NCBI GenBank assembly: GCA_031256445.1
Contig: JAIRQN010000018.1
Location: 1 to 64,000 of the forward strand
Origin: Treponema sp.
GTDB lineage: Bacteria > Spirochaetota > Spirochaetia > Treponematales > Breznakiellaceae
Reading direction: 5' to 3'
DNA: 64,000 nucleotides
Part shown: positions 7,360-28,783 of the stretch, piece after piece
How positions within the stretch are numbered: position 1 is the first letter of the stretch
How the letters are laid out: every line of letters begins with the position of its first letter
Made by a program: the position numbers and the translations under genes
The notes under the pieces: generated by a model
What the model saw: the letters and a program-made list of their open reading frames with translations, nothing else
Database searches by the model: none
What the model was told of the DNA's origin: nothing

Positions 7360-8385
7360 ATGAAAAGTAGATTGAACAAATTGTTCACAAACAGAGGTTT
7401 CGGAAAAACATACGCATTTATCTGCGTTTTTCTGCTGGCATTTGCCCTGATTCCCGTTTATGGAGCGGATGAACTGGACACGGCTATCCGCGAAGCGGGC
7501 GGCTATTTAAACACGCAAATTCAGGGGAGAAGCAGGATTGCCATTATTAATATTCAATCCGATTCACCTTCGCTCTCAAATTATATAATTGATGAGCTTA
7601 CCGCGAATGTGGTAAACAACAGAATCCTTGCCGTGGTTGAAAAAAAACAGCTGGATTCAGCCCGCGCGGAGCAGAAATTACAGGTTTCTGGTGAGGTTAA
7701 TGACAGGGATGCCATAGCTATCGGCCAGATTTCCGGCGCGCATTCAATCGTAACCGGAAGCGTTACTACGGTTGGCAGCCGCTACCGCCTGACAATCCGC
7801 GCTTTGGATGTTAAAACCTCCAGGGTACAGGTTCAGTACAACAAGAACATTAACTCAAGCCCGGTTATTGCCGCCTTTTTAAAGAAAGATGCGCCCGTAG
7901 CCGCAGCGCCCGCACCTGCTCCGGCTCCCGCACCTGCTCCGGCTCCCGCACCTGTAGCAGCGCCCGCTCCGGCAGCCAGAACATCAAGTCTGCAAAATGG
8001 AGAATATACATTTTGGCCGCGGCTTTTTACAATGCGCGCCGGTATTAAAGCAGATAACATTTTTATTCCGCAAATAACCGTTACAAAGGATTTTGTTGTA
8101 ATTCATCTTTGCAGAAGCGCGGCAGGCGCCTGGAAAGATGATGTATCGGGAAACGGTATCAGCGGATTTTATGATAAACGTAATTTTAGACTGCAGAATC
8201 TTGATAATCCTTCTCAATTTTATGAAGTTGTGAGCGCCCAAAGCACAAATAACGGAATGGGGAGAATTTGGACATTGTCATATAACCGTTTTGACGCGAC
8301 AAGACTCAGCCTTTCATGCAAGCCATACAGCGGTGATGATCCGCCTTACATCTTTGAGGAAATTATATTGGGTAAACCGGATTAA
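7360..8385 (+). CDS. Secreted CsgG/LpoB-like protein with Pro-Ala linker and C-terminal beta domain
   Basis: Signal peptide; 'SRIAIINIQSDSPSLSNYIIDELTANVVNNRILAVVEKKQLDSARAEQKLQVSGEVNDRDAIAIGQISGAHSIVTGSV'; PAPAPAPA linker. Confidence 0.75.
   Translation: MKSRLNKLFTNRGFGKTYAFICVFLLAFALIPVYGADELDTAIREAGGYLNTQIQGRSRIAIINIQSDSPSLSNYIIDELTANVVNNRILAVVEKKQLDSARAEQKLQVSGEVNDRDAIAIGQISGAHSIVTGSVTTVGSRYRLTIRALDVKTSRVQVQYNKNINSSPVIAAFLKKDAPVAAAPAPAPAPAPAPAPAPVAAPAPAARTSSLQNGEYTFWPRLFTMRAGIKADNIFIPQITVTKDFVVIHLCRSAAGAWKDDVSGNGISGFYDKRNFRLQNLDNPSQFYEVVSAQSTNNGMGRIWTLSYNRFDATRLSLSCKPYSGDDPPYIFEEIILGKPD
7909..7954. repeat. 18-bp tandem repeat encoding the Pro-Ala linker
   Basis: cccgcacctgctccggct x2.5. 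Confidence 0.85.
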
Positions 8386-8397
8386 TCCCGTCTTGCG

Positions 8398-8937
8398 ATG
8401 AGGGAAGACACCGTACCAATGGACAATCCGCGCAGGATTCCCGTTAACATGCGTTTAAGGCCGGAACATTATGAAAAACTAATGTCCGGCCTTAAGCCTG
8501 AAATGATGGAAGACAAGTGGCTGGTTTATGTTGAAAACGATGTCATTCACTGCCACCGCTCCTGGACAGGCTATGAAACCTACCGCGCCCAGATACACAA
8601 AGACGATAACAGCAGTTATGTGATAACAGAGATTCTCGCGGAGCGGAACGCGGAAAAATATACCAATACCAATGATGATAAAGACATTATGTCATTCTCA
8701 AGAGTAATCGCCTGGCTTGTTCTGCGAACCGGGGTGGAAGATATTATGGGCGGGAGCGAATTTCTGAGATGTCCCAAAGGGCATGTGTACGATTCCAAAC
8801 TGAAAAAATGCCCTTACTGTGACGGTTTGACAATTAACGAAGAACTGGAAAAATTGCTGGATAATGATAAAGAGAATGATACTGTAAAAAATCTGGGAAA
8901 CATCGCGATGTGCTATTTAATGGGGCCAAAAGAATGA
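8398..8937 (+). CDS. Zinc-ribbon protein with C-terminal AMCYxMGP motif
   Basis: 'MEDKWLVYVENDVIHCHRSWTGYETY' N-terminal domain; 'CPKGHVYDSKLKKCPYC' ribbon; ends 'IAMCYLMGPKE'. Confidence 0.65.
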   Translation: MREDTVPMDNPRRIPVNMRLRPEHYEKLMSGLKPEMMEDKWLVYVENDVIHCHRSWTGYETYRAQIHKDDNSSYVITEILAERNAEKYTNTNDDKDIMSFSRVIAWLVLRTGVEDIMGGSEFLRCPKGHVYDSKLKKCPYCDGLTINEELEKLLDNDKENDTVKNLGNIAMCYLMGPKE

Positions 8938-9134
8938 AGGAGAAGGCGGCTGGCAGTTTTAAAAAATGCTCCAATGGCCATGTGTACGATTCTAAATTGG
9001 AGGAATGCCCTTATTGCGGCGGTAAAAAAATAGAGGACGATCTGGAAAATTTGCCGCCCGATGATTCTGATCCGCCGATGGAAACCGCGATGTGTTATGA
9101 CATGGGTCCTAGGTGGCAGGATGATATTGACTGA
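8934..9134 (+). CDS. Small zinc-ribbon protein with C-terminal AMCYxMGP motif
   Basis: ATG at 8934 overlaps the upstream stop (ATGA); 'CSNGHVYDSKLEECPYCGG...ETAMCYDMGPRWQDDID'. Confidence 0.65.
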   Translation: MKEKAAGSFKKCSNGHVYDSKLEECPYCGGKKIEDDLENLPPDDSDPPMETAMCYDMGPRWQDDID

Positions 9135-9143
9135 GAGCCGAAA

Positions 9144-10553
9144 ATGAAAAATCAGGCCGTTCAGTCCGGCGTATTGCCAATAACAGGAGTGATTGAGCTT
9201 ACCTATAGGTGCAATCATAAATGTTTGTACTGCTCCTGTCCGTGGGAAAATGAACTGGACGGTTATCCGAAATATGAAAAAGGAACTGAGTTTGATTTAA
9301 CGCAATGGAAACAGGCGATGGATATTCTGGAAAAGAACGGAGTGAAAAACCTTTCTTTATCCGGCGGAGAAACCCTTCTTAAACCTGAGTTACCTGACAT
9401 TCTTGCCTATATCCGCGAAAAAAACGTTTTTAACAAAGACAAATATATCGTAGTTATTTCCAACGGCCTGGCGATGAGCGAAGAATTTCTTTCTCTTTTT
9501 AAAAAGTACAAGGCGCATTTATCGCTGTCGCTTCCCGGAATTGATACCTTTGAAAGGCACACTGGAGTTGATAACGCCCTTGGCGTGCTTCACTGGCTTA
9601 AAAGAGCCTCCAGAGAAGGGGTGCAGACAACGGTGAATGTGACTGTAACCAATATCAATTATCATGAGTTACGCGAAACAATTTCCTACGCGCTTATCGC
9701 GGGAGCGGACACTCTGCTGCTTAACCGTTTCCTGATTGGCGGAAGGGGAATCCGCTATCAGGATGAACTGTCGCTGACCCACGAACAGATCAACGGGATG
9801 CTGGACACCGCGGAGGATGTTCTTGAAAAAGCGCGGCGGTGGGGCGGCGCGGGAACGGAGATACCGTTCTGCGTTTTAAAAAAATATGAACATGAGTACA
9901 AACGCTTAAGAATAGGCTTTCTGTGCGCCGCGGCGAAGAATTTTTTTGTTGTGGATCCGGCAGGGCGCATAAGAGCGTGCAATCATTCGCCGCGCGCGGT
10001 TGGGCATATTTTTAATGATCCTTTAATTGACGATACTGATTACTGGAACATTTTCGCTAACCGCGATTATATTCCAAATGTATGCTGCCATTGCACTGAC
10101 ATATCCATTTGCGACTGCGGATGCAGGGAAGCCGCCAATATTACAGCCGGTTCCGCGCGCGGGGTTGATCCCTGCATGAAAGGCTGCGAAAAGGAAATGT
10201 CAGAGCGCGTGGAAAAAATTGAATATGAATACAGGAATGATTTTGACCGCAGGTTCGACAAGGATTTCCGCTCTCTTTTTACAGAGCGCCTTAAGGAAGA
10301 CTCAAAATTCGGATGGGAACTGTGGTCTTCCATGGCGAATGTAAGCTGGATAAACGAAAACGATCCTGATGAAACACATTGCAGGCGTTCCTTCCGGGGA
10401 GCCGGCACGCTGTTAGCTGTCATGGAAGGCAAAGACAAGTACACCAAATGGTACTGCACCGGTCCTTACGAAACGGTAAGCGGATACATAGCGGAAAAAA
10501 TGGCGTCCAAAGGCTGGCGTTATGTGCCGGACGGATATGGCACGGAGATATAA
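9144..10553 (+). CDS. Radical SAM/SPASM protein (candidate peptide maturase)
   Basis: 'LTYRCNHKCLYCSC' (CxxxCxxC), 'LSLSGGETLLKPEL', and a SPASM-type cysteine region 'FLCAAAKNFFVVDPAGRIRACNHS...CCHCTDISICDCGCREA...CMKGC'. Confidence 0.85.
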   Translation: MKNQAVQSGVLPITGVIELTYRCNHKCLYCSCPWENELDGYPKYEKGTEFDLTQWKQAMDILEKNGVKNLSLSGGETLLKPELPDILAYIREKNVFNKDKYIVVISNGLAMSEEFLSLFKKYKAHLSLSLPGIDTFERHTGVDNALGVLHWLKRASREGVQTTVNVTVTNINYHELRETISYALIAGADTLLLNRFLIGGRGIRYQDELSLTHEQINGMLDTAEDVLEKARRWGGAGTEIPFCVLKKYEHEYKRLRIGFLCAAAKNFFVVDPAGRIRACNHSPRAVGHIFNDPLIDDTDYWNIFANRDYIPNVCCHCTDISICDCGCREAANITAGSARGVDPCMKGCEKEMSERVEKIEYEYRNDFDRRFDKDFRSLFTERLKEDSKFGWELWSSMANVSWINENDPDETHCRRSFRGAGTLLAVMEGKDKYTKWYCTGPYETVSGYIAEKMASKGWRYVPDGYGTEI

Positions 10554-10592
10554 GTAGTGAATTGTGAGAAGAAAAAAGAAAGGAGAAATTAA

Positions 10593-12032
10593 ATGAAGAA
10601 AAAGATTTGGATTGCCGCATTGTCATTGGCGGTAATGTGTGCAGCGGCGACGGCCTGCGCGTCAGGCGGCGGAGCAAAAGAGTCTTCTTATTCCGCAGAC
10701 AGTCTGACGCTGGATACGGCGATAACTGAAACCGCTTCGTACTTTGCAGAGCGGATACCCCAGGGCGCGAAGGTGGCTTTGATTCCATTTGACGCGCCAG
10801 CAGGAAAGTTATCGGATTATATTTTCGAGGAATTTTGGAGACGCCTTGAAGATACGCGCAGGTTCGTTATGGTGGATCGCAAAAACCTTGATCGTATTGA
10901 AACGGAAATGAAACATCAATATGACTCCGGCAGGGTGGATGACGATTTAATCATTTCCATGACCAGGCAGTTCGGAGCGGAAATACTCATCCACGGACAG
11001 ATGACTTCGCTTGGCAGTGAATACCGCATGACAGTTTACGCTACCGATGTTGAAAAAGCCGCATCAAGTCAGAGGGCTTTTACCGTCAGGCCGGATAACC
11101 GCCTTTCCTCACTGTTAAATGTATCGGCGGAAGACGAGGTAGAAAGGGCTGTTTCAGTTATGGCCCGGTCTGTTAATCAAAGAACCGTTATCGCTGTGGG
11201 AAGAATAAGTTATGCGGATACCCAAACGGTTACAAGCCTTTCAGCATGGCTGAAGAACGGCATTATCACAGGAGCGCAGAAACAACAGGACAAGTTTCAG
11301 GTGGCGACAGATGACCAGAGCGCCGATTTCGCGGTGGCAAGCCGTGGGCTTACTGTTGAAACGCCGGTCGCGGACAGCGCAATTCAGGCTGTAGTTACCG
11401 GAAACTACTCGCCCCTGGATAACGGCGCGGAAGTATCTTTGCAGTTGGTATCCACAGGCGGGAATAAAACTGTGCTGGCCTCGCAGCGGTTTACCATTCC
11501 CGCTTCGGAACTGGAACGGCGCAGACTCTCTCTTCTTCCCGAAAAAGGCGGCGCTGTTATGAGCAGAGCCGAGTTTGAGACGAAACAGCAGGCTGTTAAT
11601 TCATACGCGGGTAAAAACAACAAGTGGAACTTTACGGTAACCCCGGACGTACTGGACGGCATTTACCGTGACGGGGATTTAATGTCCATGCGGATATTTT
11701 CTGAGCGCGACTGCTACTTCCGCATAATCCATGTCGATGTGAACGGAAACACCCAGATCATTTATCCCGCAGGTTCCGCAGATAATAACTTTATCAGGGC
11801 GGGAGAGACCCGGCGCATTCCGGATAACACAAGGTTCAGAATGGGATCGCCTTTCGGCGAAGAGCTCATTCTGGCTGCGGCTTATGACAGGCCGTTTACC
11901 TCCGGCGCGTCAGGAACTGTGCCGTTAAGTGAAGGATACATCTCCCGCGGACTGACTGTGGAAAGCGATAATAAAACATCGCTGAGCCCGTCGGCAACGG
12001 CTAAATTTAGCTACACTATTCTGGCGAAGTGA
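10593..12032 (+). CDS. CsgG/LpoB-like lipoprotein with DUF4384 domain
   Basis: Lipobox AAATAC; 'AKVALIPFDAPAGKLSDYIFEEFWRRLEDTRRFVMVDRKNLDRI'; C-terminal 'DGIYRDGDLMSMRIFSERDCYFRIIHVDVNGNTQIIYP' is DUF4384-like. Confidence 0.8.
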   Translation: MKKKIWIAALSLAVMCAAATACASGGGAKESSYSADSLTLDTAITETASYFAERIPQGAKVALIPFDAPAGKLSDYIFEEFWRRLEDTRRFVMVDRKNLDRIETEMKHQYDSGRVDDDLIISMTRQFGAEILIHGQMTSLGSEYRMTVYATDVEKAASSQRAFTVRPDNRLSSLLNVSAEDEVERAVSVMARSVNQRTVIAVGRISYADTQTVTSLSAWLKNGIITGAQKQQDKFQVATDDQSADFAVASRGLTVETPVADSAIQAVVTGNYSPLDNGAEVSLQLVSTGGNKTVLASQRFTIPASELERRRLSLLPEKGGAVMSRAEFETKQQAVNSYAGKNNKWNFTVTPDVLDGIYRDGDLMSMRIFSERDCYFRIIHVDVNGNTQIIYPAGSADNNFIRAGETRRIPDNTRFRMGSPFGEELILAAAYDRPFTSGASGTVPLSEGYISRGLTVESDNKTSLSPSATAKFSYTILAK

Positions 12033-12041
12033 GGAAAGCGT

Positions 12042-12374
12042 ATGTTCAGACTGGAAATAACAATGGAATCGCGCTGCGGGGAAAAGCAGAAATATATTAA
12101 AAGATCTTTCCCGGCGGAGAAGGGAACGCTTGAGATTGGAAAATACGGGTATCCTTTCAGCAAATACGGAACCATCGAGATCGGAAATTTTATCGGAATT
12201 ACAGACGGATATCTGGAATTTAATTTCGCCGGAACGAACTTAAAAGTTTTTCTGAACAGTTTTCTTACGGTTAAAAAAGAATACGCGACCGCGCACATAG
12301 ACCCGTACTTAAAGCTTCCTGTTCCCGGAGAGGAGGAAATAGTGCACACAACATTCTATCTTTATATTGAGTGA
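12042..12374 (+). CDS. Hypothetical protein
   Basis: 110 aa ORF in operon-like context. Confidence 0.5.
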   Translation: MFRLEITMESRCGEKQKYIKRSFPAEKGTLEIGKYGYPFSKYGTIEIGNFIGITDGYLEFNFAGTNLKVFLNSFLTVKKEYATAHIDPYLKLPVPGEEEIVHTTFYLYIE

Positions 12375-12388
12375 CAAGGAGTAGTTTT

Positions 12389-12913
12389 ATGAGTCCTGTA
12401 TTTTGGGCATTTGGAAAGATTAGTATTTTGCTGATCATTATCGGATTCTGCCTGCCTGTCGCCTATGGTTTAAACGGGTTTCAGCTCGCTCATAGCGATA
12501 TCGCCTCCCCAGGATTGTCATTTGTTCTTTATGGATTGTTTATATCCGCGGTTATCGGGCTTTTATTTTATTTTCTGGATAATATATTTCTGGAAATCAG
12601 CGGGTTTGTCGATCTTTGGGCGTTTTTTGAATCAAAAATTGTCAGCCTTGTCGAAATTATTATATGTATTTGTTTTGGGCTTATTCCATTTTTTATTAAT
12701 TTAAATGAACATGGCGGCAATTATCAATACGGTATAATTTTAATATTTATTGGATTCGCGCTGTCATTAATTTTTCATATTATTTCTTTGGTTATGGAAA
12801 TTAATGAAGGTGTCGGCGGCAGTGGGGGTAGCAGCAGCGGTATCAGTAGTAACAGTAGCAGTAGTAGTAGTAGCAGCGACGATGATTATTATTTTCCTGA
12901 CGTTTGTCCATAA
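12389..12913 (+). CDS. Hypothetical membrane protein with poly-Ser tail
   Basis: Start at 12389 (MSPVFWAFG) after aaggag; four hydrophobic segments; tail SGGSSSGISSNSSSSSSSSDDDYYFPDVCP. Confidence 0.6.
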   Translation: MSPVFWAFGKISILLIIIGFCLPVAYGLNGFQLAHSDIASPGLSFVLYGLFISAVIGLLFYFLDNIFLEISGFVDLWAFFESKIVSLVEIIICICFGLIPFFINLNEHGGNYQYGIILIFIGFALSLIFHIISLVMEINEGVGGSGGSSSGISSNSSSSSSSSDDDYYFPDVCP

Positions 12914-12928
12914 ACAATGGAGAGTTGA

Positions 12929-13306
12929 ATGACAGAACAGCAAATGAATGAAAAATTTATAAAAGGGAAAGGGTTTTATAATGACAAGCAGTATGAAGGA
13001 GCGGTATTAATTTTTATGGAGATTGCGCAGGCCGGATACGCTGACGCGCAATTCATGATGGGCATTTGCTGCGCGGGAGGTCATGGCGCGGAAAAAAGCG
13101 AAGCAGAAGCCGCGCGGTGGTTTGGCAAAGCCGCCGATCAGGGAAGTGCAAACGCGCAGAATGAACTCGGCGTTTTTTACCAGCTTGGCGCGGGCGTGGA
13201 ACAAAATCTGGAAAAAGCGGTTGAGTCTTACAGCATGGCGGCGGAACAGGGACACGCCGAAGCCAAAAATGTTTTAAATGAACTTGAAAAAAGAAAAATT
13301 ATATAG
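12929..13306 (+). CDS. SEL1-repeat protein
   Basis: 'AEAARWFGKAADQGSANAQNELGVFYQLGAGVEQNLEKAVESYSMAAEQGHAEAK'. Confidence 0.85.
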   Translation: MTEQQMNEKFIKGKGFYNDKQYEGAVLIFMEIAQAGYADAQFMMGICCAGGHGAEKSEAEAARWFGKAADQGSANAQNELGVFYQLGAGVEQNLEKAVESYSMAAEQGHAEAKNVLNELEKRKII

Positions 13307-13315
13307 GAGAAATTT

Positions 13316-15508
13316 ATGACCAAAGAAGAATTTGAAACCGAGTACAACAAAATATTCGACAGGGCAATGACGTTTAGCGAAAAAACCCGCCGCGAAGGAC
13401 TGCTTTCCATGGAAGACTCCATAGATGAAGAGAAGCTCTTTCAAAGAGATATAATGGAATTGGGGTTAAGACTTGCCTGCGATGGAACTGATTCCACAAT
13501 AATAGATAATATACTAACCAATATCATCAACCAGGAAAAAGATGAAAATAAAAAGATTTTAAAAACAGTTCAAAAAACCGCCGTGCTGTCCATTCAACAA
13601 GGATATTCACGTGGAATATTCGCGTTGACGTTAAATTCGCATGTAGATGTTTGTTACCGCGGCGCGCTGGATATATATCTTGATATTAATAATTACCCGA
13701 AAGTATCATCCGCTGACGAAATAGATCAGCTGCTCAACGGAGATGAAGATGAATCCGGCTCGGATTCATTTAATAAAGCGTTCGATGAGTATCAAAAAAA
13801 CAATTACGATAAAGCCGTGCCGGAATTTATAAAACTGGCGGAAGCGGGAAATGAAAAGGCGTGTTTTTATCTTGGCATCTGTTATCAGCATAATCTGGGG
13901 TTGGAACAGGATTTCCTCAAAGCCAAAGAGTGGTTCCTGAAGGCGGCGGAACTGGGCAATCTGGAAGGTTATGAAAGAATTGGCCTGTGTTATGAAAACG
14001 GAATTGGCACAGGGAAGGATTATGCCGAAGCGTTCAAGTGGTTTCTCAAGGCCGCCGAACTTGGTCAAAGCGAATCTCAGCGTAAAACCGGCCATTATTA
14101 TGCCGCTGGCAGAACCGTTGAACGGGATATTAACAAAGCGGCAGAGTGGATTCAAAAAGCCGCGGATCAGGGCGACTTTGTCGCGAAAATGGATTTGGAT
14201 AATCTTAAGGAAAATCCTGAAGCCTATACGGGAACGCTCCCCCAGAATGAGATTGATGCTCTGTTATCCGCCGTAGGTTCAAACAGCGGGAAAGACGGAG
14301 AATCGTCACAGGATTCAGATCTGCTGGATTTGGGCGAAGACAATTTTGACCTTGCCGTTAAATATCTGAAAGGAGAAGGCGTAGAGCAGGATTACGCTTT
14401 GGCCGAAAAGTTTTTCCACGAGGATTTGGAAACAAAAAAGGCAACTTTCGGAGAAGATTCTTTTCTGGCAAAAGAATGTTATGTGATTGGCGACCGTTAC
14501 AGAGAGCATGAAGATTACGAAATAGCGATCTCCTGGTATAATGACGCGCTTATGATGTTTAAAAAAATTAATGATGGAAAAAATCAGGATATAACCGATT
14601 CCCTGTGTTTTATCGCCATCTGTCATGAAAAAAAAGGCGATTATATAACGGCGGTTGATTATTATAAAGATACTGTAGCGTCAGATGAAGAAGTCAATGG
14701 AAAAGGAAATCAGAATATCGCTTTATATTTAAACCAGATATCCTTCTGTTATGTGAAATTGGAAGATTACGCGAATGCCCTGAAATACAGCATGATGGCT
14801 CTTGCAATAAGGGAAGAAATCTTTGGAACTGAACATTCGGATACGGCTTTAGTTTATTATAAAATAGCTGAAATTTATTTTATGAAGAATGATTATGAAA
14901 ACGCGCTGATTTTTTATGATAAAGCCTATTTAGCCCATAAAAAATGTAACGGTAAAGATGATATCAGCGCCAATGATTCGCTTTTATGCATCGCTTTTTG
15001 TCATGAGGAAATGGGAGAATACGGAAAAGCGCTTTCCTGCTATAAAGACGCGGTTGTTATATACGAAAGAGCGCTGGGTAAGGATCATCCAAGCACCGCT
15101 GTCGCTTTCTACAGTATTTCCGGCTGTTATTACAACCTGAAAGATTATGAAAAAGCGCTGGAAAGCGATTTGGAAGCTCTCGCCATAAGGGAAAGAATTT
15201 GCGAAGAAGACGCTCCTGAATTATCGCTCTCGTTTAATAACACCGGCACCGATTACCGTTTCCTTGGCAGGTATGAGGAGGCGCTTAAATATCATTTTAA
15301 ATCGCTGGAGTTAAGAAAGAAACACAGCAGGCAAAAAGATACTATCGCTTTCTCGTATAATACAATTGGCAAGGATTACGAAGCGCTGGGCGACAGGGAA
15401 AACGCTGTTAAATATTTTAAAGAGGCGCTTTCTGTTTATGAGTCGCTTGAAGGATTTGAGACCAACGCTGAAGACACAAGACAGGCGATTGCGAGGAATG
15501 AGGAGTAA
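13316..15508 (+). CDS. SEL1/TPR protein with MotA-like N-terminal segment and FliM/FliN-type EIDxLL motifs
   Basis: N-terminus 'EKTRREGLLSMEDSIDEEKLFQRDIMELGLRLACDGTDSTIIDNILTNII...AVLSIQQGYSRGIFALTLNSHVD'; 'ADEIDQLLNGDED'; SEL1 repeats; 'QNEIDALLSAVGS'; kinesin-light-chain-like TPRs. Confidence 0.7.
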   Translation: MTKEEFETEYNKIFDRAMTFSEKTRREGLLSMEDSIDEEKLFQRDIMELGLRLACDGTDSTIIDNILTNIINQEKDENKKILKTVQKTAVLSIQQGYSRGIFALTLNSHVDVCYRGALDIYLDINNYPKVSSADEIDQLLNGDEDESGSDSFNKAFDEYQKNNYDKAVPEFIKLAEAGNEKACFYLGICYQHNLGLEQDFLKAKEWFLKAAELGNLEGYERIGLCYENGIGTGKDYAEAFKWFLKAAELGQSESQRKTGHYYAAGRTVERDINKAAEWIQKAADQGDFVAKMDLDNLKENPEAYTGTLPQNEIDALLSAVGSNSGKDGESSQDSDLLDLGEDNFDLAVKYLKGEGVEQDYALAEKFFHEDLETKKATFGEDSFLAKECYVIGDRYREHEDYEIAISWYNDALMMFKKINDGKNQDITDSLCFIAICHEKKGDYITAVDYYKDTVASDEEVNGKGNQNIALYLNQISFCYVKLEDYANALKYSMMALAIREEIFGTEHSDTALVYYKIAEIYFMKNDYENALIFYDKAYLAHKKCNGKDDISANDSLLCIAFCHEEMGEYGKALSCYKDAVVIYERALGKDHPSTAVAFYSISGCYYNLKDYEKALESDLEALAIRERICEEDAPELSLSFNNTGTDYRFLGRYEEALKYHFKSLELRKKHSRQKDTIAFSYNTIGKDYEALGDRENAVKYFKEALSVYESLEGFETNAEDTRQAIARNEE

Positions 15509-15518
15509 GGAGTGAATT

Positions 15519-17183
15519 ATGGCAGAAGAAGCAGACGCTGACCATGCCGCTGATGGTGAAAATTCCCAGGATTTTTATTCAAGCGATTATCCCCACAAAT
15601 GTTCCAAAGATCAGATAAGATCAATCAGCATATTACATGAAAAATTTGTCCGTTTGGCGGTTAAAAGTCTTTCTGTTAAACTTAACCGCCATGTCAGCAT
15701 GTTTCTCGCCTGCACTGATCAAAATACCCTGGGAGATTTTATCCGCACGCTTCCCAATCCTTCAACAATTGGCATTATCAGCATGGAGCCGCTTAAGGGC
15801 TGCGCTGTAATGGAAATGTATAATTCAATCGCCTTTGACGGAATATTCCCCCTGCTTTTGGAAGATTTACGCAAAACATGGTCGGAAATTATTGACTTGC
15901 GGCCCAAGCTGGAAAAAAAGGAAACAGATCCCCAATCCATAAAAATCGCTCCTCGCCCGGAAGGCGTTGTTCTTTTGGTATTTGAAACAAGGATTGGAGA
16001 CACAGAGGCGATGATAAATTTCGCCATTCCGTATTCTGTCATTAAACAGGTTATTAATGAATTCACTGAAGAAAAAATTAATAAAATTAAAAACGAAGTG
16101 GACGCGCAGGACGCGCAGGAGTACCTGAAAGCCGCGGAAAATGGGGACGCGGAAAAACAAATTAAACTAGCTTTTTGTTATTTGAAAGGCGAAGGCGTGC
16201 AGCAGGATTACGAGAAAGGCATTGAATGGCTGCAAAAAGCCGCGGCTCAGGAGGATGTTGACGCTCAGCATTATCTGGCCATATTTTTCAAACAGGGATC
16301 TTACGTTGAAAGAAATTTGGCAAGAGCTCTTGAATTGTTTTTGAAAGTTTTGGAAAAAAAATTAAAGCAGAATGGAAAGGACAGTTCTGAAACAGCCGGA
16401 ATTTATAATGATATAGGCTCATGTTACAGCGAGCTGGGCGAATTTCAAAAAGCAGTTGAATACTGCAATAACGCGCTTGTTATGAGTAAAAATCTGCTGG
16501 AAGAAGAACTGCCCGAGACAGGTGAAATTTATACGAATTTGGGAATTAATTATTACTGCCTTGGCCAATACGACGCCGCTCTTGAAAATTTCACCAATGG
16601 AAAAAATACAAACGCCATTTCCCTGGGAAAAGAAACTCCCGGCGCGGCAACTTCCTGTTTTTACATTGCCAGCTGTTATGAAGCAAAAGGCGAATTCAAT
16701 AAAGCGCTTTCTTTCTATAATGAAGCGCTTGCCATTTATGAAAAAACATCCGATACGGACAGTTTTGATACAGCCAACACCTGCTACTGCGCGGCTAACT
16801 GCTGCAGGGAAATCAATAATTATGAAAAAGCGAATGAATTTGATTTAAAGGCTTTAAAAATCAGGGTGAAAATCTGTAAAGAAAATGATCCTGTTTTAAC
16901 TGATTCGTACAGCATTATCGGTGTTAATTACCGGAATCTGGGAAATTATGATAACGCTCTTAAATTTCATTTTAAGACTCTGGAGTTAAAGAAAAAATAT
17001 CAAGGCAATAACCCTGAAAATACCGCCTTTACATTAACAAGCATCGGCAGGGATTACGAAGCGCAGGGCGACAGGAAAAACGCGCAAAAATATTTCCAGG
17101 AAGCGCTTGCAATATATCAATCGCTCGATGGATTTGAAAATGACGCAGATGAAACAAAGCAAGCGCTTGAGAGGAACAGTTAA
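15519..17183 (+). CDS. FliM middle-domain-like / SEL1 / TPR fusion protein
   Basis: 'KCSKDQIRSISILHEKFVRLAVKSLSVKLNRHVSMFLACTDQNTLGDFIRTLPNPSTIGIISMEPLKGCAVMEM' and 'TWSEIIDLRPKLEKKETDPQSIKIAPRPEGVVLLVFETRIGDTEAMINFAIPY' are FliM-like; then SEL1 and TPRs. Confidence 0.75.
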   Translation: MAEEADADHAADGENSQDFYSSDYPHKCSKDQIRSISILHEKFVRLAVKSLSVKLNRHVSMFLACTDQNTLGDFIRTLPNPSTIGIISMEPLKGCAVMEMYNSIAFDGIFPLLLEDLRKTWSEIIDLRPKLEKKETDPQSIKIAPRPEGVVLLVFETRIGDTEAMINFAIPYSVIKQVINEFTEEKINKIKNEVDAQDAQEYLKAAENGDAEKQIKLAFCYLKGEGVQQDYEKGIEWLQKAAAQEDVDAQHYLAIFFKQGSYVERNLARALELFLKVLEKKLKQNGKDSSETAGIYNDIGSCYSELGEFQKAVEYCNNALVMSKNLLEEELPETGEIYTNLGINYYCLGQYDAALENFTNGKNTNAISLGKETPGAATSCFYIASCYEAKGEFNKALSFYNEALAIYEKTSDTDSFDTANTCYCAANCCREINNYEKANEFDLKALKIRVKICKENDPVLTDSYSIIGVNYRNLGNYDNALKFHFKTLELKKKYQGNNPENTAFTLTSIGRDYEAQGDRKNAQKYFQEALAIYQSLDGFENDADETKQALERNS

Positions 17184-25549: not shown

Positions 25550-28500
25550 ATGTTATATGATTTTAAAGAAAACAGGCAAATACGCATTTTCATCTCTTCG
25601 ACATTCAGGGACATGATGCAGGAGCGGGATTATCTTATAACAAGAGTTTTCCCGGAGCTGCGCCGTTACTGCGATGAGCGTGACATCAGTCTCTTCGAGC
25701 TTGACCTGCGATGGGGCGTAACGCAGGAAGAGTCGGAAAACCAGATGGCGTTTAAAATATGCCTTAACGAAGTGGACAACACAAGGCCGTTTTTTATCGG
25801 GCTTCTGGGAGAGCGTTACGGCTGGGTTCCGGATGAAGAGACGCAGAATAAAATGAAATTGACAAAAGTATTTGATGAGTACGAGTGGCTTCCTGGCGAA
25901 CTAAAAAAGAAAAAAAGCATTACAGAAACCGAGATTCAGGAAGGCGCGTTTTTGCCGGAAGACGAAATAAACGCGTATTTTTATTTGCGCTCCCCAAAGA
26001 TGGATACGCCGCAGGAGTTCAGGGAAGATAAGGGCAGCCATGGCGAAAAAATGCTTTTGGAGCTGAAAGACAGAATCAGAAAAGATAAAAGATACGCGGT
26101 AAAGGATTATGACGGCGTTGAGCATCTGGGGAATATGATAGAAAAAGATTTTAAAGCGATTGTAGATAAACTTTTTCCCGGGCAGGGGCATCTTTCCGGT
26201 TTTGAAAAAGAACGGCTTCAGCAATATATATTTTTAAAGAGCAAAACCAGAGCGTATGTTACCCGCCATGAATGGATGGAATATCTTGATAAATTCGCGG
26301 ACGGCGGTGAAAGAGCTGCGGCTGTTACAGGCGAAAGCGGGATTGGAAAATGCGCTCTTCTTGCAAACTGGATCGCGGACAGGCAGAAAAAGCAAATACC
26401 AAACGAAAAAATCATTTATCATTTTACCGGCGTGTCCCAAAGCGAAGGCGATTATCAGAAAATCACCCGGCGTTTTATGGATGAAGTGCGCTCGCTTTAT
26501 AATTTTCCTGTAAAAGAAGAAAACGCGCTGAAGATAGATATGGTTGCCAATAAAAAAAATGAGACAGAAGATGATGAAGACGACCCTGAATTTGAATTGC
26601 AGGAACTGTTATTCGCCATACCTGAAGATCAAAAATTGATAATCGTTCTTGACAGCCTTGACAGCCTTGATGATACAGATAACGCGAAAATGCTTAACTG
26701 GCTGCCTGCTCACCCTGGCAATGTAAAATTTATTTTTTCGGCCGTATCGGGCGATAAAACCATTGAGGCTCTGGAGCGCAGAACAGGCAATATTCTTGAG
26801 CTTGACTCTCTGCCTGAAAAGTCAAGAAGAGGGTTAATTGTAAAATATTTTGAGAAGTTCAGCAAGAAACTGAGCGCCGCGCAGATGGAAAGGATAATAT
26901 CTGACAAGAAGAGCGAAAACCCTGCCGTGCTGACCGCCATACTGGATAATTTGCGCATATTCGGCAATTTTGACATTTTTGACAAACAGATAGAAGAACG
27001 CCTTTCCTGCCATAGCGGCGAGAGCCTGTTTGATCTGTTCCTGCAAAATATTGAATCGGTTTTTAATGAAGCCGGTGCAACAGCGGGCAGTTCGCGTAAA
27101 AGCGCGGTAAAAGATATTCTTTCTCTTCTGGCGCTCTCGCGGCGCGGGCTTACAGAAACAGAAATAGTGAATATTTCCAAAGTTCCCAAATTGTACTGGT
27201 CGCAGCTTTCCAACTGCATGTCAGCGCATTTAAAAACAATTAACGGATTTGTCACTTTTTCCGGCGGTTTAATGTTAAACGCGGTGAAAAACCGTTATCT
27301 GAAAGACAGCGGAGCGCGGCGGGCTTGCCGCCTGTCAATTTCCGCTTATATGGAGTCGGGCGAAGAAGTTTCGTTTAACAGAAAATGCGGGGAGCTTCCT
27401 TTCCAGCTCATGGAATTGAAGGATTATGACAGGCTTTACGGTTTTCTTCTTGACAAAAAGGCGTTTGATCATATTTACGCGAAGGACAAGTATGAACTTG
27501 GCGGTTACTGGAGAGCCCTGCGGGAACATGACATGAAACGCTATAAAATGGAAAAATACCTGGAACTTGACATTAAAGACAAGGAAGAATTGACGGACTT
27601 TTTGGAAAATATTTCCTCGTTTATTAACAACATAATAATTGATCCTTCTTTGGCTCTTGTGTTTGCGCAAAAACATCTTGAAGTATGCGAAGAATATTTT
27701 GGAAAAGACAGCGCAAAAACGGCTGTTTCATATATCAAAATTGGCAGCTGTTACGGAAGCAATAGCTTAAGGGATTATAACAAAGCGCTTGAATATTTCA
27801 TTAACGCCGGGGAAATTTATAAAAAAGTAAACGGTAAGGATCATTATACCGCAGCGACTGTTTATTGTAACATCGGTTCATGTTATGGCAATCCTTCCAT
27901 AGGTAAATATGATGAAGCGGTTGAATATTATACCGATGCCCTTGATATAATAAAGAAAGAATTCGGAGAGGATGAAAATTCCCTTACAGCCGTAATTTAC
28001 GGCAATATAGGCCAATGTTATATCAATAACAGCAAGCCTGCGGATGCCGTTGAATACTGTTACAATGCCCTTAAATTATGCGAAACTTTTTACGGAAGGG
28101 AACATCCTAAAACCGCTCAATCATATTATGTTATGGGAGAACTAATGTATAATCTGCAGCAATTCGCGGAAGCTGTTCAATTCCTTAATACTTTCTTAAA
28201 TATCTGGATAAATTTCTTCGGAGAAGAACATCTTAAAATCGCTGAAACCTATAATAATATCGGTTTTTGTTATATGGGCCTTAAAGAAAATGAAAAAGCG
28301 GTTGAAGCCAGCGGCAAAGCGATAAAATTATTCATGAAAATTGACGGAGAAAATACTGATAGGGCGGCCAGCGCGTATTTCAACGCCGGTATGTGCTTTC
28401 ATTCGTCAGAAGACTACGGCAAAGCGGTTGAAAATTTTGGCAAGTATATCAGCATAGTCGTCAAGAATCCCGGCACAGACCCTTTCAGAATCGCGTATGC

Positions 28501-28783
28501 CAAATCGAAATCCGCCGCCTGTTATTATGAGCTGGGCGAGTATGAAAAAGCGCTTCCATATTACAATGACGCGCTTGCGGCATATATGAAAAAATACGGC
28601 GGGAAACACCTACAGGTTGGAATTATGTACGATGACATGGCTGTATGTTATGATGAACTTGAAGATTATGATAACGCGCTAAGCTGTTACAAAAAGGCGA
28701 TATCTGTTTACGAATTGTACGATGATACTGAGGATTTAATTGAAGGCGCGAAGGATTCAATCGAAAGGATTGGTTCGTCATAA
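25550..28783 (+). CDS. DUF4062-STAND/NACHT-type ATPase-TPR protein
   Basis: 'IRIFISSTFRDMMQERDYLITRVFPELRRYCDERDISLFELDLRWGVTQEES' (DUF4062); Walker A 'GESGIGKCALL'; Walker B 'LIIVLDSLDSLDD'; C-terminal TPRs. Confidence 0.85.
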   Translation: MLYDFKENRQIRIFISSTFRDMMQERDYLITRVFPELRRYCDERDISLFELDLRWGVTQEESENQMAFKICLNEVDNTRPFFIGLLGERYGWVPDEETQNKMKLTKVFDEYEWLPGELKKKKSITETEIQEGAFLPEDEINAYFYLRSPKMDTPQEFREDKGSHGEKMLLELKDRIRKDKRYAVKDYDGVEHLGNMIEKDFKAIVDKLFPGQGHLSGFEKERLQQYIFLKSKTRAYVTRHEWMEYLDKFADGGERAAAVTGESGIGKCALLANWIADRQKKQIPNEKIIYHFTGVSQSEGDYQKITRRFMDEVRSLYNFPVKEENALKIDMVANKKNETEDDEDDPEFELQELLFAIPEDQKLIIVLDSLDSLDDTDNAKMLNWLPAHPGNVKFIFSAVSGDKTIEALERRTGNILELDSLPEKSRRGLIVKYFEKFSKKLSAAQMERIISDKKSENPAVLTAILDNLRIFGNFDIFDKQIEERLSCHSGESLFDLFLQNIESVFNEAGATAGSSRKSAVKDILSLLALSRRGLTETEIVNISKVPKLYWSQLSNCMSAHLKTINGFVTFSGGLMLNAVKNRYLKDSGARRACRLSISAYMESGEEVSFNRKCGELPFQLMELKDYDRLYGFLLDKKAFDHIYAKDKYELGGYWRALREHDMKRYKMEKYLELDIKDKEELTDFLENISSFINNIIIDPSLALVFAQKHLEVCEEYFGKDSAKTAVSYIKIGSCYGSNSLRDYNKALEYFINAGEIYKKVNGKDHYTAATVYCNIGSCYGNPSIGKYDEAVEYYTDALDIIKKEFGEDENSLTAVIYGNIGQCYINNSKPADAVEYCYNALKLCETFYGREHPKTAQSYYVMGELMYNLQQFAEAVQFLNTFLNIWINFFGEEHLKIAETYNNIGFCYMGLKENEKAVEASGKAIKLFMKIDGENTDRAASAYFNAGMCFHSSEDYGKAVENFGKYISIVVKNPGTDPFRIAYAKSKSAACYYELGEYEKALPYYNDALAAYMKKYGGKHLQVGIMYDDMAVCYDELEDYDNALSCYKKAISVYELYDDTEDLIEGAKDSIERIGSS

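Follow-up and report, generated by a model that had tools for sequence, protein, structure and literature searches.

Two small zinc-ribbon peptides and a radical SAM (rSAM)/SPASM enzyme are encoded in a tightly packed gene run in the window, a stretch of 64,000 nucleotides from a Treponema genome (2.8 Mb, 107 contigs). Its nearest named relatives are Treponema MAGs, whose termite-gut origin we take from their isolate names. Enzymes of the SPASM type introduce unusual bonds into peptides. The run probably represents one compact peptide-modification cassette made of two ribosomal peptides and one modifying enzyme, with the ribbon as leader and a C-terminal Ala-x-Cys-Tyr (AxCY) tail as core. With the substrate role taken from gene context, the cassette appears to be an undescribed variant of rSAM/SPASM peptide modification. 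It is narrowly distributed, in a few termite-gut spirochaetes.

In the mechanism that we propose, the N-terminal zinc ribbon would be a folded recognition part, joined by an acidic, flexible linker to the C-terminal core. The enzyme would dock on the ribbon and/or the linker, SAM would be cleaved reductively and the 5'-deoxyadenosyl radical would abstract a hydrogen from a core residue, which the auxiliary SPASM cluster would help to oxidise or to join. The simplest outcome would be a link between the Cys sulfur and a carbon of a neighbouring residue, with the loss of 2 Da. From the gene order, the overlap, the conservation, the co-occurrence and the SPASM class of the enzyme, we infer that peptides A and B are the substrates, AxCY the site and the ribbon the recognition part. 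A thioether or a similar two-electron oxidation at the Cys is our guess, and we can likewise only guess at the fate of the tail, which might later be cut off and exported or be kept on the protein. The cassette is laid out as follows.

8398..8937, + strand: ORF A (179 aa), accessory 'HRSWTG' domain fused to substrate-type peptide A
8770..8826, + strand: zinc ribbon of peptide A (CPKGHVYDSKLKKCPYCDG), C-x3-H-x8-C-x2-C (peptide alignment)
8905..8934, + strand: putative core, C-terminal tail AMCYLMGPKE (AxCY) of peptide A (motif search, peptide alignment)
8934..9134, + strand: ORF B (66 aa), substrate-type peptide B
8967..9023, + strand: zinc ribbon of peptide B (CSNGHVYDSKLEECPYCGG) (peptide alignment)
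9087..9131, + strand: putative core, C-terminal tail AMCYDMGPRWQDDID of peptide B (motif search, orthologue codon comparison)
9144..10553, + strand: radical SAM/SPASM maturase candidate (469 aa; domain models, conserved cysteines)
9210..9233, + strand: SAM cluster ligands CNHKCLYC (CxxxCxxC), cysteines invariant in 5 of 5 members
9924..10175, + strand: SPASM region with C261, C279, CxxC-x5-CxCGC and C344 as auxiliary cluster ligands (TIGR04085 above cut-off)
10209..10553, + strand: extra C-terminal domain of the rSAM enzyme, missing from the G168 and G222 enzymes and stand-alone elsewhere

The first-pass annotation had described two consecutive ORFs with a zinc ribbon and a matching tail, followed within 10 bp by an rSAM gene. 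Indeed, the ORFs at 8398-8937 and 8934-9134 end in IAMCYLMGPKE and TAMCYDMGPRWQDDID, the ATG of ORF B overlaps the TGA of ORF A (ATGA overlap), and the rSAM gene starts 9 bp after ORF B. An Rfam search revealed no RNA family near the cassette, and a promoter/terminator scan gave nothing useful above chance level.

In both peptides, a CxxGHxYD..CPYC ribbon is followed by an acidic linker and the tail. Degenerate DNA for AMCYxMGP has exactly two matches in the 2.8-Mb genome, both in the cassette, with 0 control matches. Alignment of ten peptides revealed that F, C, G, H, C, P, C and G of the ribbon and A, C and Y of the tail are invariant; the linkers vary in length and sequence and do not align. 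When an orphan peptide of G168 is counted, A-x-C-Y is present in 11 of 11 tails. The core had been proposed to be AMCYxMGP, and the Cys/Tyr part of this proposal is strongly conserved, but MGP is not invariant; AMCYxMGP is ruled out as the true motif and only A-x-C-Y is kept. We know of no published target motif that matches the AxCY core. Two paralogue types recur, one with A-like tails (A-x-C-Y-[LMF]) and one with B-like tails (AMCYDMG). A pair of B orthologues has 0-1 amino-acid changes and 2-4 synonymous ones over the eight tail codons from Ala, compared with 3-9 amino-acid changes in 21 ribbon codons, which is a description and not a test because the orthologue pairs are not independent. 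No solved-structure relatives of the peptides were found. In the B peptide of G172 (L006 1987-2289), a long extension rich in Asp closes with another CY motif (IPPPCYAPRAEKFRK), which resembles the tail CYAPKP seen in one of the L005 peptides.

ORF A begins with a distinct domain of ~120 aa that carries the motif HRSWTG. In L005 this domain has its own gene (58% identical), whose end abuts the first peptide, and in other phyla it occurs by itself or joined to NUDIX; therefore, ORF A combines peptide A with an accessory part in one fused gene. Accordingly, the earlier view of two small zinc-ribbon proteins is right for ORF B but has to be amended for ORF A. The AlphaFold model of ORF A (pLDDT 68) had no PDB match with E below 0.001, and solved-structure relatives were found neither for the HRSWTG domain nor for the C-terminal domain of the enzyme. 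The HRSWTG domain (window 8398-8757; L041 2146-3330; L042; L043) belongs to no Pfam family and stands alone in Streptomyces. An Aeromonas plasmid protein is an HRSWTG-NUDIX fusion and its gene is near an ADP-ribosylglycohydrolase gene, which hints at an NAD/ADP-ribose link of the domain.

The enzyme matches the rSAM core model PF04055 (E=3e-22) and its residues ~253-355, scanned alone, reach TIGR04085 (33.2 bits; cut-off 27); the Pfam SPASM model was not reached. C261, C279, C314, C317, C323 and C327 are invariant in five members, together with the SAM-site cysteines. The enzyme has both the CxxxCxxC core of the radical SAM superfamily and the auxiliary-cluster SPASM domain of the SPASM subgroup, in agreement with the SPASM-type cysteine cluster noted before. 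It has no curated family name: none of the equivalog models in the list of best matches reaches its cut-off, and PqqE and PapB are nearest. The closest curated whole-enzyme model is TIGR02109 (PqqE; 92 bits) and the closest solved structure is that of PqqE (6c8v; E=1e-11). PqqE is a SPASM enzyme that makes a Glu-Tyr C-C link. The core described here shares the Tyr with PqqA, but it is Cys-Tyr without a conserved Glu, the enzyme scores far below the TIGR02109 cut-off of 381, and the scanned neighbours include neither PqqD nor other PQQ genes. There is no fused RRE, as only ~16 residues precede the rSAM core (start at about residue 17), and a PqqD-like match was absent among the neighbours at 7360-15508. 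An unrecognised RRE may still be present. The AlphaFold model of the enzyme (mean pLDDT 40) is too poor for docking or for the fold of the extra domain. A phage or plasmid origin of the enzyme was rejected: plasmid and phage records give generic PqqE-like relatives only, and IMG/VR is without a true family member.

GTDB species genomes were scanned at the protein level with patterns suited to close relatives only, and the range was sampled mainly within Spirochaetota; the scan led to two close loci, L005 and L006, both in Treponema MAGs. Among 200 genomes searched in the family, 4 have the rSAM enzyme, and these belong to a single genus (G000, G166 with L005, G172 with L006, and G168), and the window enzyme is 73-81% identical to those of the three other genomes. 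The rSAM gene is directly preceded by two peptides in the window, in L006 (G172) and in G168, where the cassette encodes 60 + 74 + 351 aa, and by four in L005 (G166). A profile made from the ten peptides has strong matches in these four genomes only; two of the weak matches elsewhere, upon inspection, are ribbons that begin FHA-like proteins (FHA judged by eye). Peptides and rSAM are present in the same 4 of 4 genomes of the genus vs 0 of 35 others (Fisher p=1e-5, relatedness ignored). Outside the genus, rSAM relatives were absent from 394 genomes of the order, and 294 genomes of the order gave no new peptides. The concern that AMCYxMGP-type tails might be widespread without a linked rSAM gene is not borne out: 10 of the 11 peptides adjoin the rSAM gene, and the eleventh is in an rSAM-bearing genome. 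Every genome found with tailed ribbon peptides carries the rSAM, which is in line with the proposed linkage of enzyme and substrate. Against our explanation stands the eleventh peptide itself, an orphan (tail IADCYFQMGGD) that in G168 is on another contig than the rSAM gene. When the stretches of G168 and the other cassettes were compared, the peptides and the rSAM matched and no flanking gene did; only these are common to them, and therefore peptides and rSAM are the functional unit.

The phylum was sampled twice, evenly (393 and 306 genomes), and one further true relative was found, G222, from a separate class of two genomes, with an rSAM enzyme 43-46% identical over the core. The gene directly upstream (the ORFs abut) encodes 224 aa and carries KNLSIGAECYEIAQKPERVEYVCPVCG, with GAECYE followed by a zinc ribbon. 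AxCY had been defined on the Treponema peptides before this comparison; A.CY appeared in 1.0% of shuffles of the G222 neighbour and about once per 7,000-9,000 residues in 149 background ORFs of at least 150 aa. This one gene, with AECY and a ribbon, is supportive but not conclusive for a pairing of AxCY with the rSAM. A weaker relative, G266, has a neighbour with PVTCYE, without the Ala, and was left out of the count. The gene of its SPASM rSAM (L047 1489-3100; best model GeoRSP with 100 bits, below the cut-off of 400) starts 1 bp after that of a membrane-type protein (200 aa) that carries SCIPPVTCYEGGYEPYEYENY. In G367 (L048 1429-3944 / L051), a SPASM-type rSAM adjoins a membrane-type protein with a C-terminal Cys/His repeat, possibly another long protein with an rSAM-modified tail.

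Is the cassette a RiPP system, as the first-pass annotation had it? A short ribosomal precursor with a conserved core next to a maturase is what is seen here, and adjacency, co-occurrence and the expected duplication of the peptides (2, 2, 2+1 and 4 copies in the four genomes) argue for it. On the other hand, a fused RRE is missing, and the neighbours covered by the Pfam scans include neither an exporter nor a leader peptidase. The term RiPP is perhaps too specific, because the rest of a RiPP pathway was not found among the scanned neighbours. With no RRE, exporter or leader protease nearby, a modified intracellular small protein is therefore a serious alternative to a secreted RiPP: the rSAM would modify a small protein that stays whole in the cell as a redox or metal centre or as an interaction tag, similar to QhpD/QhpC. 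This alternative, which overlaps our explanation in the assignment of the substrates, is plausible but falls short of being probable. In its favour are a recognition part with a fold of its own, the ribbon, the lack of any visible leader protease, double-glycine site or exporter in the vicinity, the fusion of ORF A to a further domain of intracellular type and the FliM-like gene beside that of the orphan peptide; however, several divergent copies with tails varying around a fixed AxCY resemble RiPP precursors, and exporter and protease may be unlinked. It is tempting, though rather speculative, to combine the ribbon as folded leader with a new Ala/Cys/Tyr-centred modification (e.g. a Cys-Tyr-derived crosslink) on paired small proteins that stay in the cell, so that the product would be a genetically encoded cofactor or tag within a protein rather than a RiPP for secretion.

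PapB links Cys to a downstream Asp/Glu and tolerates CXnD with n=0-6 (PMC9413430). Like the cassette enzyme, PapB (NF047865) is a SPASM enzyme with a Cys in the core of its substrate; it is the best match of the G168 enzyme and among the best whole-length family matches (E 2e-14 to 2e-19), and most tails have D/E 2-7 residues after the Cys. Still, it is unlikely that the cassette enzyme is a maturase of this ranthipeptide type, with a link from the core Cys to an Asp/Glu further downstream. The scores of 53.9 (window) and 69.9 bits (G168) are far under the PapB cut-off of 340 bits, a CX3D array is absent, and the invariant neighbours of the Cys are Ala and Tyr. Moreover, peptide A of G168 (AMCYLRGPKI) is without any acidic residue after the Cys, so that Cys-Xn-Asp/Glu is not found in every core; a PapB-type Cys-Asp/Glu link is therefore ruled out as a general rule.

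Two CsgG-type lipoprotein genes flank the cassette of the window, which occupies one end of an island. This island has genes for Sel1/TPR proteins, a DUF4062-NACHT-like-TPR protein, DUF1963, DUF4116, MORN-like and LRR/ankyrin proteins. L005 and L006 have their cassettes in similar islands, the latter with SUKH and a Sel1-DUF1963-type gene. The ribbons could be adaptors of such an island, with the rSAM acting on something else and the tail being an interaction motif only. Three of the four cassettes are in such islands and similar ribbons start FHA-like proteins in other spirochaetes, but the co-occurrence of peptides and rSAM is perfect and the G168 cassette is outside any Sel1/TPR/NACHT-like island, with only peptides and rSAM kept. 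Therefore, the island is not needed, and we regard the adaptor function as quite improbable. Hardly credible is a separate chemistry of the viperin or cofactor type (viperin, MoaA, PqqE) for the enzyme, next to unrelated peptides, since the domain-level matches to all three are far under the curated cut-offs (viperin (pVip), NF038283: 45 bits, cut-off 180), which rules out PQQ, viperin and MoaA membership, the enzyme has a SPASM domain, to our knowledge absent from viperin and MoaA, and PQQ or Moco genes were not among the scanned neighbours.

The peptide-modification cassette that we favour has counterparts elsewhere. In conflict systems of other bacteria, C-terminal-motif peptides beside rSAM/SPASM enzymes are predicted to be modified; the VMAP ternary conflict systems share with our cassette the rSAM/SPASM enzyme and the C-terminal-motif peptide near repeat/NTPase conflict-type genes (PMC7159879). 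In contrast, the motif is AxCY and not FxSxx, vWA-MoxR-VMAP genes are missing among the scanned neighbours and the cassette is also found outside such islands. GeoRSP and rSAM_w_lipo (TIGR04133) are likewise SPASM enzymes, which NCBIfam pairs with a longer neighbouring target protein; the HMM similarity to TIGR04133 is weak (E=9e-12; 44.6 bits, cut-off 425). Nothing relevant on ribbon-type leaders or Treponema RiPPs was found in the open-access literature. New features of the cassette would be the replacement of a simple leader by a folded zinc ribbon, the invariant AxCY core, the paired A/B substrates and an enzyme for which no curated name was found. The G168 cassette is a minimal, clean test system. 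If the modification is true, more leader folds and more kinds of rSAM chemistry on peptides would be known; should the tail remain attached, the peptides would join the short list of rSAM-matured intracellular proteins.

A DUF4062 + NACHT-like ATPase + TPR protein (window 25550-28783), conserved in L005, matches the nephrocystin-3 models PF24883 and PF24884 and is a candidate STAND/NLR-like protein in a repeat-rich island. Another protein combines a FliM middle domain (PF02154 E=3e-33) with Sel1/TPR repeats (window 15519-17183 and 13316-15508; L032 709-1629), and the Sel1/TPR protein adjoining the fusion has EIDQLL / NEIDALL motifs resembling the CheY-binding segment of FliM. The gene of the orphan AxCY peptide of G168 is 18 bp downstream of a 228-aa FliM-like ORF (PF02154 E=5e-38).

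Residues ~356-469 of the rSAM enzyme are an extra domain, which is missing from the enzymes of G168 (351 aa) and G222 (372 aa) and stands alone in a 153-aa ORF of G171. The domain is dispensable because the G168 enzyme is without it; since G168 is without the HRSWTG domain as well, both extra domains are ruled out as essential parts. Relatives with 31-41% identity are found in a Bradyrhizobium prophage and on Sphingomonad plasmids. Apparently, this is an unnamed portable domain with the pattern ELWSSMANVSW..SFR.AG..A...G..Y..WYC.GPY..V (window 10209-10553; L011 1387-1848; L040 4950-5360; L044; L045). As a stand-alone gene it follows ERF/YqaJ recombination genes in a prophage, and on plasmids it has a Fic protein or a VapBC-type pair in its vicinity.
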